64,000 nt of DNA from an uncultured archaeon. GTDB taxonomy: Archaea; Thermoplasmatota; Thermoplasmata; Thermoplasmatales; Thermoplasmataceae. The notes under the pieces were generated by a model. That model did no database searches. It had not been told where the DNA came from and saw only the letters and a list, made by a program, of their open reading frames with translations. Made by a program: the position numbers and the translations under genes. Below are positions 12,384 to 40,784 of the stretch, piece by piece (positions within the stretch are counted from its first letter, which is position 1; each line of letters begins with the position of its first letter). The stretch is from assembly GCA_000965745.1 (NCBI GenBank), contig CP009479.1, positions 2,056,457 through 2,120,456 of the forward strand. Reading direction: 5' to 3'.

Positions 12384-12408
12384 CTCCAAGAGTATTTAGG
12401 AAACCATT

Positions 12409-12493
12409 GCGGAGGTTGTCGAGCTAGGTCAAAGGCGATGGATTCAGGGTCCATTCCCGTAGGGGTTCGCCGGTTCGAATCCGGCCCTCCGCA
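12409..12493 (+). tRNA. tRNA-Leu (anticodon CAG)
   Basis: An 85-nt class II tRNA. The acceptor strands GCGGAGG and CCTCCGC pair perfectly. The anticodon arm is ATGGA, loop TTCAGGG, TCCAT, giving anticodon CAG for Leu codon CTG. A long variable arm follows, and then the T-arm GCCGG-TTCGAAT-CCGGC. No CCA is encoded and no intron is seen. Its 3' 52 bp (12443-12494) are repeated exactly at 14839-14890, so it is the chromosomal attachment site of an integrated element and is left intact by the insertion. Confidence 0.95.
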
Positions 12494-12494
12494 T
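12443..12494 (+). repeat. attL copy of the 52-bp direct repeat (tRNA-Leu 3' part)
   Basis: Identical over 52 bp to 14839-14890. The flanking bases differ on both sides (a before versus g, c after versus a), which fixes the repeat ends. Confidence 0.92.
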
Positions 12495-12784
12495 CCCTAT
12501 ATGGGTTTGTGCAGTTCACTACCTCCGATTTTTGACCGGAGTGGGTATTTAAAAAGGTTTTCCATTGGTCCGTGTTATCTATTGTGTCTATATCATAACC
12601 TGAGACTCTGTCTTCGTGATCATTACTTGGATTACATAAGATCTGAACACTCTCAAGACAGCTACAAGTTTTAGATGTGGAAATCTGGAACCTTATCCAT
12701 AAGCACACACTAAACCAGGAAGTTTCAAAGTTATTTGATAAAAATGAATCTTTGTGCAGATTATCAATGCATAGCGATGTACAC

Positions 12785-13870
12785 TTATGAATATATTGTT
12801 ACTCCGCACATGTTGTAATTACTGTTGAGCCACCCTCCAGTGAGAAAGCCATCTTCATAGGCTCCCGGAGCAGTTTCTGGCTCATAGGTACCATAAAAGT
12901 TGCCTACATTTCCTTGGGCTAGAGGATTTGGACCACCAGTCCAGTAGTCAAACGTTTGGACAAGAAATGTTTGAACCCAGTCCCCCACGTTGTAGGGTGC
13001 ATTTGTGGTATAATATGAATATTGCCCATTGGCCACAGAGGCCAAATTGAGGTTGTAGAAAGTATTAACGTTGAATTTAGGTATTTGGTCTTCGTGTTGT
13101 GTTGCGGTATCTAATGGTGCTTCTGTCATAAAAGCGGACCAAGTTGTATGCACGGTTGTTGGTAGATTCACCGTATCACTATGTGAATAACCCGATGAGT
13201 CACCCCAGTAGAATGTAATTTGATTGAAGTATCCGTTTGCGCCAGCGTTTGTAGATATCGACAAATACAGGGTGCTACCAGTAGGAACTGTAACTGCTCC
13301 TCCATTTCCGTTAGAAATACCTACATTATATGGAACACCATAGTTGTTGTTATTGTTTAAACTCAAATACTCCCACCACAGATATGCGTGATTTGGTCCA
13401 ACATTTGCTGACACACTATCTGACGGATTCAATGGTACTTTTACAGTTTTATCTGGTGATATGCTATACCCAAGCTGTATTAATCCATTATTTCCACCAT
13501 GCCCACCTTCAAGACCTATCCAAGCGGACATCATCGAAATTGTACAAGTAGCAATCGTGCTTGGGTCTTGTACTGCTTCAACATTTACATAAGAATTCAC
13601 TGAAGTGAAACTGGAGCCTGAGGGAGCCCAAAATTCATAACCACCCCAAGCATAGCTATTATAATACTGGGCCTCAGGTCCTCCATTTTTTGGAATGGGA
13701 GAAGTAGAATTCTCGTATATCGTTTGCATAGAAAATGGTCCAAAAATTTCAGAGGCGTGTTGTGAAAGAACTTTCTCCAAGGGACTGTCAGCAATTTGTG
13801 GTGCTAGGATGCTAATCACTGCGACAGCTATCAGAACAATTGTCAGAATCTTTCTGATTATATTTCTCAT
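12785..13870 (-). CDS. secreted glutamic peptidase-like protein (G1/eqolisin family)
   Basis: About 361 residues from ATG 13870, with an N-terminal hydrophobic helix (signal peptide or anchor) and then an all-beta domain. Features match G1 peptidases: the opening W-G-G-Y...G-S-S-F-T-S-V, then A-W-I-G-L-E-G, L-I-Q-L-G, Y-L-W-W-E-Y, and W-S-A-F-M-T-E-A-P. Counted from the longer frame start at 13912, the candidate catalytic pair is Gln146 and Glu264. G1 enzymes work at acid pH, which suits an acidophile. The upstream TATA-like tttaataaac supports the ATG at 13870. It lies inside the tRNA-borne element as its main cargo. An inactive relative with a binding role is possible. Confidence 0.7.
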   Translation of the reverse strand: MRNIIRKILTIVLIAVAVISILAPQIADSPLEKVLSQHASEIFGPFSMQTIYENSTSPIPKNGGPEAQYYNSYAWGGYEFWAPSGSSFTSVNSYVNVEAVQDPSTIATCTISMMSAWIGLEGGHGGNNGLIQLGYSISPDKTVKVPLNPSDSVSANVGPNHAYLWWEYLSLNNNNNYGVPYNVGISNGNGGAVTVPTGSTLYLSISTNAGANGYFNQITFYWGDSSGYSHSDTVNLPTTVHTTWSAFMTEAPLDTATQHEDQIPKFNVNTFYNLNLASVANGQYSYYTTNAPYNVGDWVQTFLVQTFDYWTGGPNPLAQGNVGNFYGTYEPETAPGAYEDGFLTGGWLNSNYNMCGVTIYS

Positions 13871-14143
13871 TATTTTTATAATATGGAAAGCTATGAAAAG
13901 TTTATTAAACATAAAAATGATGGTATTCAGTACAAAAAGGGCGGACTAAATCCCCATCACTTTGAACATTCCCGAATAACAAGAGAATCTGTGGCCAAAT
14001 TCACTATACCTACCTTGGACTTGGGGTCAACTCCCCGGTGGATCGTTTGAAAAGCTTTCAATTGAAGGAAGTATGCCTACCTACTTTGCCAAAAGGAAGT
14101 ATAAAAGACTGTCCCAGCAGCATTTTCTATTGTGCCAAATAGA

Positions 14144-14428
14144 TTATGTTGTTGTACGGCTTTGCTTACTATGCCACAGTTGTCTAATTGACAAAATAAT
14201 TACTATCACAGAAAAGATCAATACGAGTATAGAGGTCGTGACAATACCTGCGGTCGTATAAAACCAGAAACTCCCAGAATAATGTGCTGGGCCCGGGATA
14301 CCAGGAGTATTCGGCAGGTTGAATATATTGTACAATGCTTCGGACCAGAATATCAGACCCAGCATCCCGGCCATCAACCCAAATATTGAAACCAAATTCC
14401 AAAATCGTAATCCTACGATCGACACCAT
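14144..14428 (-). CDS. small two-helix membrane protein of the integrated element
   Basis: About 94 residues with two strongly hydrophobic helices, near residues 8-30 and 55-80, and a short basic C-terminal tail (R-Q-L-W-H-S-K-Q-S-R). No family is recognised. Small membrane proteins of this kind are common in archaeal viruses and plasmids. The frame opens with TTG at 14470, but ATG 14428 is preferred, as a TATA-like ttttaatata lies 50 nt upstream and the extra residues overlap the integrase remnant. Confidence 0.55.
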   Translation of the reverse strand: MVSIVGLRFWNLVSIFGLMAGMLGLIFWSEALYNIFNLPNTPGIPGPAHYSGSFWFYTTAGIVTTSILVLIFSVIVIILSIRQLWHSKQSRTTT

Positions 14429-14478
14429 TTTATAATAAACTAAGAGAGGATTTAACTTTAACGCTACCAATTCCTATA

Positions 14479-14850
14479 TTAAAATGTAATATCACCATAA
14501 AAATAAGCCTTCTTAATTTCTTCATAACATGGAATGTAGTTATCAACTTGTGAACGGCCTCTATTCTTCAATATACGAAGTTAAGGCTCTATTGTTTCCT
14601 CTTGCACTTCTCCATCATTCTCCAGTAGGAATTTGAGGTAATTTCTCAACGTGAGAACGCAATATCTATGACTTCCCTGTATGGAATTAAGGTACTTTGT
14701 CAAGTCTTTAACTGTTGTAAGCCTGTATGACCTGAAATATTTGGTATAGTACTGCAATATGGCCTTTCTGTGTCCAGAGCTTGTGCTCTTTAACTCCAAC
14801 CATTGTTTAAAGTTTCGATATTCATTCAATCTAATAGGTTCAGGGTCCAT
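14479..14850 (-). pseudogene. tyrosine-type integrase remnant (N-terminal part, in-frame stop)
   Basis: The ATG at 14850 lies inside the right tRNA repeat. The first 89 codons read as the N-terminal SAM-like, DNA-binding part of an archaeal integrase (R-N-F-K-Q-W-L, ending L-K-F-L-L-E-N-D-G-E-V-Q-E-E-T-I-E-P). A TAA follows (14581-14583), but the same frame continues for 33 codons with L-R-I-L-K-N-R and D-N-Y-I-P-C-Y-E-E-I-K-K-A. This resembles the linker 'VD.YIPS.EE' that precedes the catalytic domain in this family. The catalytic R...H-x-x-R...Y part is absent. It is a broken gene whose position in the att repeat identifies the mode of integration. Confidence 0.7.
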
Positions 14851-14890
14851 TCCCGTAGGGGTTCGCCGGTTCGAATCCGGCCCTCCGCAT
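14839..14890 (+). repeat. attR copy of the 52-bp direct repeat (tRNA-Leu 3' fragment)
   Basis: A perfect copy of 12443-12494 that contains only the 3' 51 nt of the tRNA plus one base, so it cannot make a tRNA. It also supplies the first codons of the integrase remnant on the opposite strand. Confidence 0.92.
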
Positions 14891-15036
14891 ACTATCCAAA
14901 AGAAGGGAGAGACGAAAGGGTTTCAAAATCACTTAATTCCGGGTTCCCTGAACGATTTTCGGTGATATTTAATTGTTGTCGAGGTCCTAATATATAAGTA
15001 TAGGAATATAAGGGGGAGGCTATCGGGCAGATAACC

Positions 15037-15252
15037 TTATCTTACTATGAAATAGACTATGATGATCCCTACCATTATGATCACAATGCCACTCATGACG
15101 AGTTCGATCCTTTGCACTATTCCAAAGTAGTGATACCACGAGACCGTAAAACCTATTGAACCCGTAATTCCAGCGTAGAATAATACTACTACTGCTATTG
15201 CTCCTGCTAATCCTAATGCCCCAGCCATTATCAAACCTGCTTGTTCAACCAT
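15037..15252 (-). CDS. small two-helix membrane protein
   Basis: 71 residues almost entirely made of two membrane helices: an N-terminal Gly/Ala-rich one (A-G-A-L-G-L-A-G-A-I-A-V-V-V-L) and a C-terminal Val/Ile-rich one. No family is recognised. It lies in the AT-rich island just outside the first integrated element, head to head with the next gene across a 196-base AT-rich control region. It is possibly virus- or plasmid-derived. Confidence 0.55.
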   Translation of the reverse strand: MVEQAGLIMAGALGLAGAIAVVVLFYAGITGSIGFTVSWYHYFGIVQRIELVMSGIVIIMVGIIIVYFIVR

Positions 15253-15448
15253 TCTGTTTCGCCTTCTTTTTTAATTACTGCGGAAATACCTATATTACGA
15301 AGTTTATACGCAATAATCTTTCATAAATATAGATTCTTCTATATAGGAATAATACTGTAAATATATATAGTGATATTGTAGCAAAAATAACTACGAATAT
15401 AAGAAATCAGATACCAATTGTTTTTATAGAAATCCTCAATGTAGAGCC
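15253..15448. promoter_or_regulatory. AT-rich divergent promoter region
   Basis: This stretch separates two divergent genes of the island and is packed with TATA-like runs (tttataga about 25 nt before the start at 15449, and atatatatagtg). The short words attacgaag (15290 region) and ctacgaatat are partly inverted, but I see no clear operator. Confidence 0.35.
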
Positions 15449-16435
15449 ATGCGTAATGATAAGGTGTCGTTCTCTATGACTAAACAGGAGATACATGAGC
15501 TCGAAGCAATCAGGTTAAGATACCTATTTTCAGACAAATTCTTTCCGCCTATCCTTGACTTCAAGGACATTGTCCAAGGTATGTTGTATCTAACAAGAGT
15601 AGCGGTGGAAAAAAATCGCAACTCCTTAAGAGGTTTTGTGAATCTTTTATCTCAAAAACGTGAGCTTCCGATGGTGACACCAGATGAGTTGAGCGATGAC
15701 GAAGAGGAGCAATTCGACTTCCAGAAAGATGAGGTCAGAGATGAGAAGCACCAAACAAATGAGACTACATCAGAAGATGCGAGAACCAGAAGTTATATTT
15801 TTTCTGTTAGCGAGGATGACAGGCAGAACATCAATCGGATCAGATCACTTATTTCTGAACACTCCCGATTTCAAGACCAGATTTTCAAGGATTCTGAAAT
15901 AATCAAAGGCTCAATCAATTTTGTTAGACGTCACAAGTGGAGAAACATAGAGTTCTTCCATTACACTTACTTCGGAGCATTATATGATTTGGTGCCTATA
16001 ACAATGTTAAAAATGGTATATCCTCTCGATAGTGTTCCCATGACGAATGAAGAGGAAGCTGAGGTTGGTGAAATCGAGTTGGATAAGAAGGTCATATACA
16101 AATTTCTCGTTAAGCTTAAGAACGTTGATCCTCCCAATACCGTTGAAGAGCTATATCAATTTGTAAAAAACGGTGAACGCAGTGAATTTGCTGGTCTAAA
16201 TTATGCAGAGGCTTTTCTTGGTTACTGGCTCATGTCAAATATGCTTCCATACAATACAACAATATTCTCGTTTTCATTGATGTTATCAGCTATGTCGTTG
16301 CTTGATAAAGTTGAGTCTAATGAGGCTACAACTACTTGGAATGAAGCAAAGGATAGATTCTCACTAATTCTGAATATAACCCTTGATGCGGTAGTTAATG
16401 GAAATAGTGAAAAGAATAAAGATGGAAATAAATGA
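15449..16435 (+). CDS. unknown protein with an internal duplication, possibly ribbon-helix-helix-like
   Basis: 328 residues with no family I recognise. Residues 6-50 and 116-160 align without gaps at an offset of exactly 110. Shared positions are F-S-(M/V) near the start, I-R at 21-22/131-132, F and I at 31/35, and I-(V/I)-x-G at 41-44 ending with Arg50/Arg160. Each unit reads as a short strand, a long helix, a loop and a second helix, as in ribbon-helix-helix DNA-binding domains. A very acidic linker (about 78-112) joins them. The C-terminal half (170-310) is helical. It lies in the accessory island, so a plasmid or virus regulator is plausible but inferred. Confidence 0.6.
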   Translation: MRNDKVSFSMTKQEIHELEAIRLRYLFSDKFFPPILDFKDIVQGMLYLTRVAVEKNRNSLRGFVNLLSQKRELPMVTPDELSDDEEEQFDFQKDEVRDEKHQTNETTSEDARTRSYIFSVSEDDRQNINRIRSLISEHSRFQDQIFKDSEIIKGSINFVRRHKWRNIEFFHYTYFGALYDLVPITMLKMVYPLDSVPMTNEEEAEVGEIELDKKVIYKFLVKLKNVDPPNTVEELYQFVKNGERSEFAGLNYAEAFLGYWLMSNMLPYNTTIFSFSLMLSAMSLLDKVESNEATTTWNEAKDRFSLILNITLDAVVNGNSEKNKDGNK

Positions 16436-16769
16436 TTTATGCAATAAATGAGACAGATTTATATGAACCGCCATCAGCGAAAAGATAGTCATTGTTGGTT
16501 TCAAGGGCTTGAATAATCTTCTCCAATGAATTAAGGGGCCAGCGCAAAGTCAGTTTTCTGGATGTTTGTATTGAAAAGAGACTATTTCGGAAAAAATTGG
16601 ATCAGGAGGATTCAACGACACATAATACCTGAGCATCATTTGTTTAAGAATCCGGTAAATTATAAGGTTTTTACCTTGCTTGAACTATGCTCTTGTTTTC
16701 CACCAACGGGCTTGTAAATAAACGGCTCATTTACTCAATAAGAAAACAGATAAATGCGGGTTGTCAAGT
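16436..16769. other. gap with a possible broken reading frame
   Basis: The plus frame from ATG 16463 is interrupted by stops at codons 18 and 24 and then stays open to TAA 16715-16717. A 51-codon segment (16562-16717) is rich in basic and aromatic residues. I do not recognise it, and it may be the relic of a gene of the island. A CTCAATAA motif, also found in other intergenic repeats here, lies near 16734. Confidence 0.3.
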
Positions 16770-17174
16770 TCAGTAGTCAAGAACCTTCACATCTATTTCG
16801 GCAATCTTGTCGACCCCTTTGAAATCCTGATCATTTGTTATCAGCCTGACCCTGTTCTCAGCACAGATTCCCAGAATGATAACATCCAGTTCGTTTATCA
16901 ATTTCCCATTCGCCCTTAGCTTTGTATATATGTCCGCACAATAACCTGCCGTTCTCGAAGTAAAGTCATAAACTTCAAGCTGGTTCAGGAATGACATTTG
17001 CACCTCCTTTTTGCCCTCCTGCAGATTTGATATCAAAATCCCACGCAGAAACTCATATTTGTTGATGACAGTTATGGCGGGCGTTTCATCCAGGACATCA
17101 TTCAGGGCTGCAACCACATTTTTCTGTCCATGAGCCAGACCAATCAGTATGTTTGTGTCCAGCACGGTGACCAT
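16770..17174 (-). CDS. vapC: VapC-type PIN-domain toxin
   Basis: A 134-residue PIN ribonuclease. The acidic metal site is complete: Asp6 (L-D-T-N), Glu41 (K-Y-E-F), Asp97 (E-L-D-V) and Asp115 (T-N-D). Such toxins cut tRNA or rRNA when their antitoxin is lost. It starts 4 nt after the stop of vapB in the same operon. It lies in the tRNA-linked island, where it could stabilise the mobile DNA. Confidence 0.9.
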   Translation of the reverse strand: MVTVLDTNILIGLAHGQKNVVAALNDVLDETPAITVINKYEFLRGILISNLQEGKKEVQMSFLNQLEVYDFTSRTAGYCADIYTKLRANGKLINELDVIILGICAENRVRLITNDQDFKGVDKIAEIDVKVLDY

Positions 17175-17178
17175 ATAT

Positions 17179-17415
17179 CTACAGCTCCTTTATGTCCCTG
17201 GATTTCGAGCGTTTCCTGGCTTCTAGGACTTCTTGTTTCATTTTGCCGGCCTCTTCCTCTGAGAGTGTGGCTCCAGCGCTCACAAGGTCACGGATTGTGA
17301 GCTTCTTGCCTGATTCCTTCAGGAGTTCCCGGATAATGAAGGAAAAGGACTTGTTGTCTTTGCGTTTAGACAACTCTTCGTAAACATCATCCTGAATGGA
17401 TATCACTTTCACCAT
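17179..17415 (-). CDS. vapB: VapB-type antitoxin (DUF217-like)
   Basis: 78 residues from ATG 17415 (M-V-K-V-I-S-I-Q-D-D-V-Y-E-E-L). The V-Y-E-E-L...S-F-S-F-I-I-R-E-L-L pattern is that of archaeal VapB antitoxins of the DUF217 family. The charged C-terminal helix (E-V-L-E-A-R-K-R-S-K) would wrap the toxin. The frame opens at 17439, but a TATA-like atttaaatg lies about 25 nt before 17415, so that ATG fits a leaderless mRNA. It overlaps the probable operator. Confidence 0.85.
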   Translation of the reverse strand: MVKVISIQDDVYEELSKRKDNKSFSFIIRELLKESGKKLTIRDLVSAGATLSEEEAGKMKQEVLEARKRSKSRDIKEL

Positions 17416-17430
17416 GCATACATATATGCA
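17415..17430. promoter_or_regulatory. inverted repeat, candidate vapBC operator
   Basis: TGCATA-CATA-TATGCA is a perfect 6-bp inverted repeat with a 4-nt spacer. It ends at the vapB start codon and lies between the TATA element and the coding region. Toxin-antitoxin complexes usually repress their own promoter through such a site. Confidence 0.5.
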
Positions 17431-17495
17431 TCTATACATTTAAATTCTTGTCCAGATCCCTGCATAATCTTTCGCGGGAGTGTCATTCATACCCT

Positions 17496-17512
17496 GTATC
17501 CAGCCCTCCGCA
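17496..17512 (+). repeat. degenerate third copy of the tRNA-Leu 3' end (possible old att site)
   Basis: GTATCCAGCCCTCCGCA matches the tRNA 3' end GAATCCGGCCCTCCGCA at 15 of 17 positions, in the same orientation as the two good copies. A match this close is unlikely by chance in a window of this size. The similarity stops upstream, so it is at best a decayed site. Confidence 0.45.
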
Positions 17513-17644
17513 CTAGATTCAATAGTGCGAATCTGAAAATTAGCCAAGTACCCTATTGCATGAGCTTGAATACTAGATTCCGGAAATGGGGCTATTTTGC
17601 GGCAAGCTTATGAGACAAATAGTTGATACTAGAGAGGGTGTTTT

Positions 17645-17827
17645 ATGAGTGTGAACGTGACCTCATACGATGGTAACGGCCAAACATTGAGAATCTGGTG
17701 GAAAGGACTACCTACTCTATGGTAGGATGCCCCTCTGCTCACTGTCATTGTACCATCCTTATACCTGTTCATTGCCTACAAAAATTTCTTTCTCCTGACT
17801 CTTCAATGCCCGTATGTAATGGAATAA
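17645..17827 (+). pseudogene. possible decayed small membrane-protein gene (in-frame TAG)
   Basis: An ATG opens 26 codons ending L-W, then TAG (17723-17725). The same frame then runs 33 more codons with a hydrophobic stretch (L-L-T-V-I-V-P-S-L-Y-L-F-I-A) to TAA. It reads like a 60-residue one-helix protein with a single nonsense mutation. No homologue is recognised, so chance cannot be excluded. Confidence 0.3.
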
Positions 17828-17969
17828 ACTACCGGAAAAAAAGGAAACTTCTACAGTGAAGAATTCGTCTGATACAATGTCAGGATATAGGCTCTCACTT
17901 AATCATGGACCTTCATAGTTTTATATGAGCAATAAAGATATGCAAGAAATCTCGCCGCTTATATACTTC

Positions 17970-17978
17970 GCATTACAC
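17970..17978. repeat. target-site duplication, left copy
   Basis: GCATTACAC, identical to 18980-18988 on the other side of the insertion sequence. Removing the element and one copy restores a continuous sequence. Confidence 0.85.
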
Positions 17979-18979
17979 TAGTGTGTTGCATAATTCCCCT
18001 GTATAATGAAATACAGGGGAACGATTTGTTGTTATGACACCACAACAAATCACTGCAATAGGCAATAGAAGCACAAGAAGATATTGGGTTGGTTCTAACC
18101 GAAGGCATGACAGGTACAACCGATCCTTGGTGAACAGGGTTGAAGACCTCATGGACCCTTCATTCCTCATGAACTGGAAGAACCTGCTGCAGGATAACAA
18201 CAGAGGAAAGAGAGGACATCCCTTCAAAACACCAAATGCGTTCATAACATTCCTTGCGAAGCTGAGAGCACTGTACAGCGTTCCCTTCAGGTCTCTTGAA
18301 GGAATTGCCAGGGTATTCTCCAGGATCTCGGGAATCAGGACAGTGTGCTATACCAACATATTCAGGAGGATCAGGAAGATCGTGCCAACTCTTCCCCATA
18401 CTGATGGGAAACCGGTGGACTGTGCCATTGATTCCACCGGTTTCAAGATCACTATCAGGGGCGATTATCTGGGTACTAAATGGAATCGCCGCAGAAGAGG
18501 ATGGAACAAGCTCCATGCGGTCATCTCAATACATGATGTCTCGGTGCTCTCCTTCTCCATCACCGATGAGCATGTCCATGATGCGAAGGAGGGCAGAAAG
18601 ATACTGGAATCTGTCAGGGACAGAATACTGAGGATATACGGAGACAAGGGATATGATTCAAAGAAGATATTCAATGACTTTGGGCATGGCACAATAATAC
18701 CGCCAAGGAAGAACGCCTCCACACAATCCAGGGGATCACCGGCAAGGGCTAAGGTTGTCAGACAGATCAGAAGGACATCTGAGAAGAGGTGGAAGGAATC
18801 GGTACAGTATGGGAAACGGTGGAATGTAGAGATATATTTCTCAGGTCTCAAGAGAACAATGGGTGAGGTGATCAAGGCTGTCAGGTCTGATTACATAGTT
18901 CAGGAGATCGCCCTGAAGGTGCAGTACTACAACATCATGAGAGAGATGACACATGCCTATTGAATTGTGCAACGCACTA
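17979..18979 (+). mobile_element. intact IS5-like insertion sequence with 9-bp target duplication
   Basis: The 1001-bp element has 18-bp terminal inverted repeats, TAGTGTGTTGCATAATTC and its counterpart with two mismatches. It is flanked on both sides by the 9-bp direct repeat GCATTACAC (17970-17978 and 18980-18988). It carries one complete transposase gene. The clean target duplication suggests a recent insertion. It landed just upstream of the TATA element of the next gene. Confidence 0.9.
18034..18963 (+). CDS. IS5-family DDE transposase
   Basis: 309 residues of a cut-and-paste DDE transposase. Catalytic residues are Asp133 (A-I-D-S-T), Asp204 (G-D-K-G-Y) and Glu266 (V-E-I-Y-F-S-G-L-K-R), with the Y-x(2)R-x(3)E-type spacing usual for IS5 members. 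The basic N-terminal part probably binds the terminal repeats. The gene fills the element, begins 55 bp inside the left end, and its stop lies at the inner edge of the right repeat. No frameshift is seen, so it should be active. Confidence 0.92.
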   Translation: MTPQQITAIGNRSTRRYWVGSNRRHDRYNRSLVNRVEDLMDPSFLMNWKNLLQDNNRGKRGHPFKTPNAFITFLAKLRALYSVPFRSLEGIARVFSRISGIRTVCYTNIFRRIRKIVPTLPHTDGKPVDCAIDSTGFKITIRGDYLGTKWNRRRRGWNKLHAVISIHDVSVLSFSITDEHVHDAKEGRKILESVRDRILRIYGDKGYDSKKIFNDFGHGTIIPPRKNASTQSRGSPARAKVVRQIRRTSEKRWKESVQYGKRWNVEIYFSGLKRTMGEVIKAVRSDYIVQEIALKVQYYNIMREMTHAY

Positions 18980-40469: not shown

Positions 40470-40784
40470 TTACTCTGAACTTGAGGAAAATACCTCATGG
40501 ATTGTTATTGTATTCTCACCTGCGAAGGCTTCCTTCGGCAGTGTCTCCCCACTGTGCGCCTTCTTGAATGAATCGCTTTCCATCCACTTCTGGAACTGTT
40601 CCATAGATTCCCAGTAGGTCATGACCACATAGCTGTCCCCTTTGACAGGCCTCAGTACTTCGTTTTTCACAAACCCCGGAAAACTGTCTACCATGTGTGC
40701 CCTTTCCCTGAAAACCTTCTCGAACTTCTCCTTGTATTCCTCCTTGATGGGAATGTTGTTCTGCACTACAATCATGCCCGACAA
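40470..40784 (-). CDS. IsdG/ABM-type monooxygenase-fold protein
   Basis: 104 residues with the antibiotic-biosynthesis-monooxygenase ferredoxin-like fold: P-G-F-V-K-N-E-V-L-R-P, then S-Y-V-V-M-T-Y-W-E-S-M-E-Q-F-Q-K-W and S-F-K-K-A-H. W-x-S-x-x-x-F-x-x-W and the following H-S are typical of the HmoA/IsdG branch that binds or degrades haem. The exact substrate is inferred. It is convergent with the DUF389 gene. Confidence 0.78.
   Translation of the reverse strand: MSGMIVVQNNIPIKEEYKEKFEKVFRERAHMVDSFPGFVKNEVLRPVKGDSYVVMTYWESMEQFQKWMESDSFKKAHSGETLPKEAFAGENTITIHEVFSSSSE

Follow-up and report, generated by a model that had tools for sequence, protein, structure and literature searches.

The island at tRNA-Leu(CAG)

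The source genome is a single contig of 2.23 Mb, correctly described in the initial annotation as being of Thermoplasmatales type, and the window analyzed here (the whole stretch of 64,000 nucleotides) covers its positions 2056457-2120456. The sole tRNA gene that ARAGORN finds in the window is tRNA-Leu(CAG) at 12408-12496, and base pairing sets the mature gene at 12409-12493. Its 3' part recurs as a direct repeat, 12443-12494 and 14839-14890, with 52 of 52 bp identical, exactly as first annotated. The repeat takes in the last 51 nt of the tRNA, beginning in the anticodon loop, and one flanking T; its first base lies two bases before the anticodon and its last base one past the discriminator. 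The features are as follows, with N-side and C-side halves of the integrase gene denoted int(N) and int(C):

12409..12493, plus strand: intact tRNA-Leu(CAG) (ARAGORN and acceptor-stem pairing), the integration target, its 3' part restored by the element
12443..12494, no strand: attL, from the anticodon loop to 1 nt past the tRNA 3' end; exact 52-bp repeat
12495..12784, minus strand: expected location of int(N) at the tRNA-proximal end, int(N) itself being lost; no RHH domain, TAG in the int frame 2 codons before att
12785..13912, minus strand: A4/G1 glutamic peptidase, 375 aa, predicted to be exported (PF01828, hhalign, dyad coordinates)
14144..14470, minus strand: small membrane protein with two transmembrane (2-TM) segments, 108 aa; TTG start, ATG at 14428
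14479..14889, minus strand: int(C) pseudogene of SSV/pT26-2 type, with att-derived peptide, core-binding domain, TAA at 14581-14583, start of the catalytic region, then a deletion
14839..14890, no strand: attR, the right att copy inside the int frame; exact repeat

The locus thus has the hallmarks of a tRNA-integrated element, namely a direct repeat containing the tRNA 3' end and an intact tRNA at one end, and the site-specific integration into tRNA-Leu proposed earlier is borne out by the att pair. The int fragment, the 2-TM gene, and the peptidase gene share one strand and are flanked by the exact att copies. Type I integrases use att sites with a mean length of 58 nt that usually include the anticodon (PMC6972569), an anatomy with which the 52-bp att agrees. 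No further copy of the tRNA-Leu 3' end with up to 3 mismatches occurs in the window (0 expected in shuffles). A possible second, outer att copy at 17498-17512 was rejected, as its 14/15 matching nucleotides (E 0.9) are at chance level. Across the whole genome, the 31-nt tRNA 3' end is found only in this tRNA, in the right copy, in tRNA-Leu(TAG), and, with 3 mismatches, in tRNA-Leu(CAA).

To the right of the element, 14891-18963 is of low GC and may be an older neighboring island. It encodes a 71-aa 2-TM protein, an unknown protein of 328 aa weakly similar to proteins of two related genera, a VapBC pair (16770-17439), and a DDE transposase (18034-18963).

The integrase remnant

A minus-strand ORF of 89 aa (14581-14850) has its ATG within the right att copy, and the initial annotation had the repeat supply the start codon of an integrase-like frame. 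The ATG is indeed inside the repeat, but the frame is open upstream of it across the whole att (14839-14889: CGGPDSNRRTPTGMDPEP), and we therefore regard it as a chance codon of a longer split gene. The CGGPDSNRRTPTGMDPEP frame is also the one in which two integrases targeting tRNA-Leu in the same order (L008 and L009) pass through att.

On its own, the 89-aa protein has no credible match in Pfam or PHROG, and genome contigs scanned directly with it yielded nothing. Among proteins of 61 related genomes, it matches the N-terminal part of tyrosine recombinases of ~276-333 aa from the same family and order (best E 8e-8), and the full-length relatives carry PF16795 (Phage_integr_3). A core-binding-domain profile built from the N-terminal domains of 12 relatives, with the window sequence left out, selects this frame among 1149 window frames with 55 bits and E 3e-16, compared to a best score of 11.5 bits in a reversed-frame control. 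A second, weak match of the N-domain HMM (40470-40784) was discarded, its sequence reading unlike an integrase. The integrase identity, which formerly relied on N-terminal similarity, could have been overturned by this recombinase search, which instead supported it. An AlphaFold model of the fragment (pLDDT 76) resembles the archaeal Xer recombinase 4a8e in Foldseek (probability 0.99, E 0.11) and also matches the integron integrase 2a3v; because the E-values are weak overall (0.1-0.8), we take this predicted fold as support for the assignment rather than as proof.

The frame is interrupted after the core-binding domain by an in-frame TAA at 14581-14583. Beyond it, the same frame resumes for ~33 codons (LRILKNRGRSQVDNYIPCYEEIKKAYFYGDITF), in which the integrase profile recognizes where the catalytic region begins (15 bits, E 2e-4), with LRILKNRGRSQVDNYIPCYEEIKKAY aligning with the corresponding start in the relatives, and terminates at 14479, immediately before the 2-TM gene. 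Only this start is present in the window fragment, the PF16795 catalytic domain with its nucleophilic tyrosine being absent. Judged by its sequence, the fragment is int(C), the C-side half of a suicidal integrase of SSV/pT26-2 type, a class whose gene harbors attP and becomes divided upon integration. Given the nonsense codon and the loss of most of the catalytic domain, it is classed as a pseudogene, related by descent to such enzymes and predicted not to work as one. The short frame of the initial annotation hence belongs to the integrase family as proposed, but it is a decayed gene and not merely a short ORF.

The trivial explanation for these observations would be that the repeat reflects no more than segmental duplication of the end of the tRNA, and that the 89-aa frame is open by chance, as the failure of the protein alone to find a credible Pfam or PHROG match might suggest. 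A chance frame is difficult to reconcile with the profile score and its reversed control, the fold match, and the continuation into the catalytic region, or with the identical position of the frame at tRNA-Leu att sites in other genera. On the strength of the profile evidence and the continuation past the stop, we reject this explanation, to which we assign a practically negligible probability.

At the opposite, tRNA-proximal end of the island, no RHH domain was found, and the int frame carries a TAG stop two codons before att; int(N) has therefore been lost. Since this half is gone from its expected place, the split itself is deduced from the relatives and from the frame running through the whole repeat. 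No PF16795 domain was found anywhere in the genome, whose other tyrosine recombinases match PF00589. With its N-side half lost and no PF16795 catalytic domain in the genome, the island is unable to move on its own.

Split integrases in related genomes

In several relatives, the integrase ORF emerges from an att copy with first residues that are antisense tRNA (MDRSGFEPEASCL, SRRRDSDPRPCAYQA, CGGWDLNPGTPTGLAPQP), while at the opposite end of the element a short RHH ORF runs into the tRNA copy (L063 17387-17614; L104 8303-8494). This int(N) half is found at the tRNA end in L063, L104, and L109. Its best Pfam match is the CcdA antitoxin, and its assignment as RHH is our reading of that match together with the sequence. 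When element ends were joined by script into circular forms, a 15.8-kb tRNA-Thr element (G016) gave a single ORF of 336 aa across attP, a 2.5-kb tRNA-Ala element (G103) a single integrase ORF of 342 aa, and a 6-kb element at a tRNA-Leu 5' half (G055, L109) a single ORF of 387 aa, each likewise spanning attP. Because the relatives' integrase ORFs are continuous across attP, we reject a separate type of integrase that starts inside it. The earlier view of a gene overlapping attP holds insofar as the int frame is tied to the right repeat; however, in this class attP lies inside the gene rather than at its functional start, with the RHH-bearing int(N) of intact relatives at the tRNA end.

PF16795 exceeds its cut-off in 19 of the 117 genomes of the order. 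Some of the sister split integrases are also decayed, with stops in G085 and G098 and broken frames in G031.

These relatives bear on the possibility that the island is a non-autonomous hitcher, similar to a MITE or satellite, which integrated with an already truncated int and was moved in trans by a PF16795 integrase recognizing the same tRNA-Leu att, so that 2.4 kb would be its mobile size. Selection for tRNA function acts on the left att copy alone, and yet the right one has remained exact, in contrast to the heavily damaged int. The lack of selection on the exact right copy means that integration may be recent. Integrases of the PF16795 class that target tRNA-Leu do occur in the order (L008, L009), and excision of fragmented suicidal elements by related integrases has been reported (PMC8371274). 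On the other hand, the genome itself lacks a PF16795 integrase, a second copy of the truncated form was not found, and decay after integration, as seen in G085, G098, and G031, explains the same state. We therefore consider movement in trans of a truncated form unlikely.

Tandem arrays of split-integrase elements occur at a tRNA-Ala-like site in two genomes (L104 in G103:C77 and L066 in G015:C11), where the integrase halves of neighboring elements meet at shared att copies.

The cargo genes

The two remaining genes of the island encode an exported protease and a small membrane protein, as first annotated. A single hydrophobic segment lies at the N-terminus of the 375-aa protein, whose start is more likely the ATG at 13870 (Met15; 361 aa), which would give it a classical signal peptide. 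Its match to Pfam PF01828 (E 4e-4) falls just under the curated cut-off, it passes the A4 cut-off in the genome search, and hhalign against a profile of 12 archaeal A4 proteins gives a probability of 96 and E 2e-9. The archaeal A4 profile itself matches aspergillopepsin II and scytalidopepsin B. The two residues that are invariant in the profile correspond to Gln146 and Glu264 of the window peptidase and are both kept; we take them to be the known catalytic Gln/Glu dyad of the A4/G1 family. These profile matches identify the protein as a divergent A4/G1 glutamic peptidase with an intact gene and a predicted catalytic role. It shares with scytalidopepsin B and aspergillopepsin II the family, by profile, and the catalytic Gln and Glu, but it is archaeal and divergent, has its own predicted signal peptide, and is carried on an integrated element. 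An AlphaFold model, built from 3 sequences only, reached a pLDDT of 31.

The 108-aa protein has two transmembrane segments and no family match in Pfam or NCBIfam; the sole relative found is a paralogue near tRNA-Leu(TAG). Searches against Pfam, PHROGs, and NCBIfam revealed no replication, capsid/virion, or transfer genes among the ORFs of the element, and IMG/VR scans with the integrase and two peptidases found no relative. The earlier suggestion of a minimal plasmid or virus relic is not supported; genes of these three kinds are equally absent from a complete relative of 2.5 kb.

That relative is the tRNA-Ala element of G103 (metagenome-assembled genome (MAG) MAS3.bin138, L104 5955-8490), which has a circular length of 2511 bp and encodes only three proteins: an intact integrase of 342 aa, a 2-TM protein of 133 aa, and an exported A4 peptidase of 361 aa. 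It resembles the window island in size and in holding an integrase, an exported A4 peptidase, a 2-TM protein, and nothing else, but differs in its tRNA-Ala site, its intact int halves, cargo on the strand opposite to int, and cargo proteins that are not closely related. Since a complete 2.5-kb element exists in a Thermoplasmata MAG, the small size of the island is not only due to decay. A related 4.7-kb element in G015 (LSA5.bin55) has the same three genes and a RelBE-like pair, a second A4 gene lies in the neighboring unit of the G103 array, and in G032 A4 fragments are found between tRNA-Leu(TAG) and a PF16795 remnant.

A4 genes also occur, however, outside such elements: most A4 loci in the order are not linked to an integrase, and in the 61 genomes 18 others lack one of this class within ~8 kb (some of these loci end at contig ends). 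An A4-integrase association as a rule was rejected on these grounds. Neither the peptidase nor the 2-TM protein of the window is closely homologous to its counterparts in G103 and G015, and gene order and strand differ, so the common cargo may be convergent; sequence does not support placing the 2-TM proteins of the window and of G103/G015 in one family. In view of this distance and the 18 unlinked loci, we regard the shared content as suggestive, but not proof, of one lineage.

The tRNA-Leu(TAG) locus

A decayed A4 C-terminus followed by the 2-TM paralogue lies ~9 kb from tRNA-Leu(TAG) (G000:C1:1609593-1610236; L122 10094-10737). At the tRNA itself, an orphan int(N), an 80-aa RHH-bearing minus-strand ORF (G000:C1:1600504-1600761; L122 1005-1262), reads into the 3' end; no right att copy matching it was found in the genome. 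This orphan was rejected as the partner of the window int(C), as their frames differ.

It is conceivable that the island is a composite, its right repeat and int fragment deriving from a larger decayed element and its cargo having been acquired separately, for instance by recombination with the paralogous cassette near tRNA-Leu(TAG). The presence there of an A4 remnant, a 2-TM paralogue, and an int(N) reading into the tRNA fits such an origin, as does the mismatch between the frame of that int(N) and that of the window int(C). Yet the two 2-TM copies share only 25% identity over 67 aa, a divergence that indicates no recent exchange between them, and int, 2-TM gene, and peptidase gene lie on one strand between exact att copies. 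A composite origin thus seems quite improbable.

Proposed history

Our preferred reading, to which we assign a probability of roughly 85%, is that a small circular element, of which 12443-14890 is the remnant, integrated a single time into the 3' half of tRNA-Leu(CAG) using its own SSV/pT26-2-type tyrosine integrase. In the circle, the integrase would have been one gene encoding, in order, an RHH domain, attP (the antisense tRNA 3' end), a core-binding domain, and a catalytic domain. The att core, which begins at the anticodon loop, is presumably where the strands were exchanged; this crossover would have restored the tRNA on the left and divided the integrase gene into int(N) beside the tRNA and int(C) at the right repeat. 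Useless in place after integration, the halves would then have decayed; nothing remains of int(N), and int(C) carries a stop and lacks its catalytic domain, these losses presumably following integration. Only the cargo would then persist; its exported acid (glutamic) peptidase and its 2-TM protein probably provide the host with a scavenging or competitive benefit. The peptidase may have been kept for protein scavenging in acid or for antagonism, and the 2-TM protein could serve as its anchor, immunity protein, or processing partner. Excision would require a related integrase in trans, of which the genome has none of that class; a trans-supplied integrase has been proposed for excision of other split-integrase elements (PMC8371274).

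More broadly, we tentatively raise the possibility, which we think rather doubtful, that Thermoplasmatota have minimal suicidal-integrase cassettes of ~2.5 kb, with an integrase containing attP, an exported glutamic peptidase, and a small membrane partner. These would be replication-less circles that are spread by the integrases of larger elements, accumulate in tandem at tRNA genes, and bring with them a secreted peptidase together with a protein that may confer immunity or act as an anchor. One decayed case would lie in the window and a second near tRNA-Leu(TAG).

Relation to known systems

The integrase class is already known, and the island is an ordinary relic of it with a minimal, cargo-only design. 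The suicidal integrases of SSV, pTN3, and pT26-2 constitute the PF16795 class (PMC8371274). Like the window integrase, SSV1 Int and those of the pT26-2 family and pTN3 have att inside the gene, an antisense tRNA peptide, an int(C) that issues from the right att, and an att from the anticodon loop to the tRNA 3' end; the window integrase differs by the loss of int(N) and the degeneration of int(C) to a pseudogene. In the Int of pGE2 from Pyrococcus abyssi, an RHH-like domain, tRNA peptide, core-binding domain, and catalytic domain seem to be arranged in the same order, although its RHH match by profile is weak. Integrated elements of the pT26-2 family and the fuselloviruses share tRNA integration, a split integrase, and an exact att pair with the island, but they are large (pGE2 24 kb, SSV1 15.5 kb) and carry replication or virion genes, compared to 2.4 kb and two cargo genes in the window. 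The ArcVen-P3 provirus of Archaeoglobus likewise has a split SSV-like integrase and a 55-bp att pair at tRNA-Ser, but spans 9.5 kb with viral genes (PMC4158269).

Suicidal integrases have been tested or listed for Sulfolobales, Desulfurococcales, Thermococcales, Archaeoglobales, and Methanosarcinales (PMC8371274); neither of the two main papers names Thermoplasmatales in connection with the class, a statement that covers literature outside subscription. Our results extend these self-splitting archaeal integrases to acidophilic Thermoplasmatales and DHVE2, and a circle of 2.5 kb, with two cargo genes besides its recombinase, illustrates how small such an element can be. At 2.4 kb, the island also lies under the range of 4.2-92 kb that a survey published in 2025 gives for the genomic islands of acidophilic archaea (PMC12302457). 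If such circles move, they would offer a simple natural system for studying how elements that destroy their own integrase persist, and for asking whether secreted acid proteases travel as mobile 'public goods'.

Other remnants in the genome

Further traces of small tRNA elements and of the integrase family occur elsewhere in the same genome. A duplicate of the 5' half of tRNA-Leu(TAG) lies 1.09 kb upstream, and the two copies enclose an antitoxin/MazF-like pair (G000:C1:1599396-1600547; L163 12397-13548), an arrangement that looks like another tiny tRNA element and is comparable to the 5'-half element of G055 (L109). A remnant of the core-binding domain of the same integrase family lies beside tRNA-Cys (G000:C1:1977854-1978021; L160), and a fragment with RHH and core-binding integrase sequence (G000:C1:326076-326264; L002) is broken off where transposase-like sequence begins.
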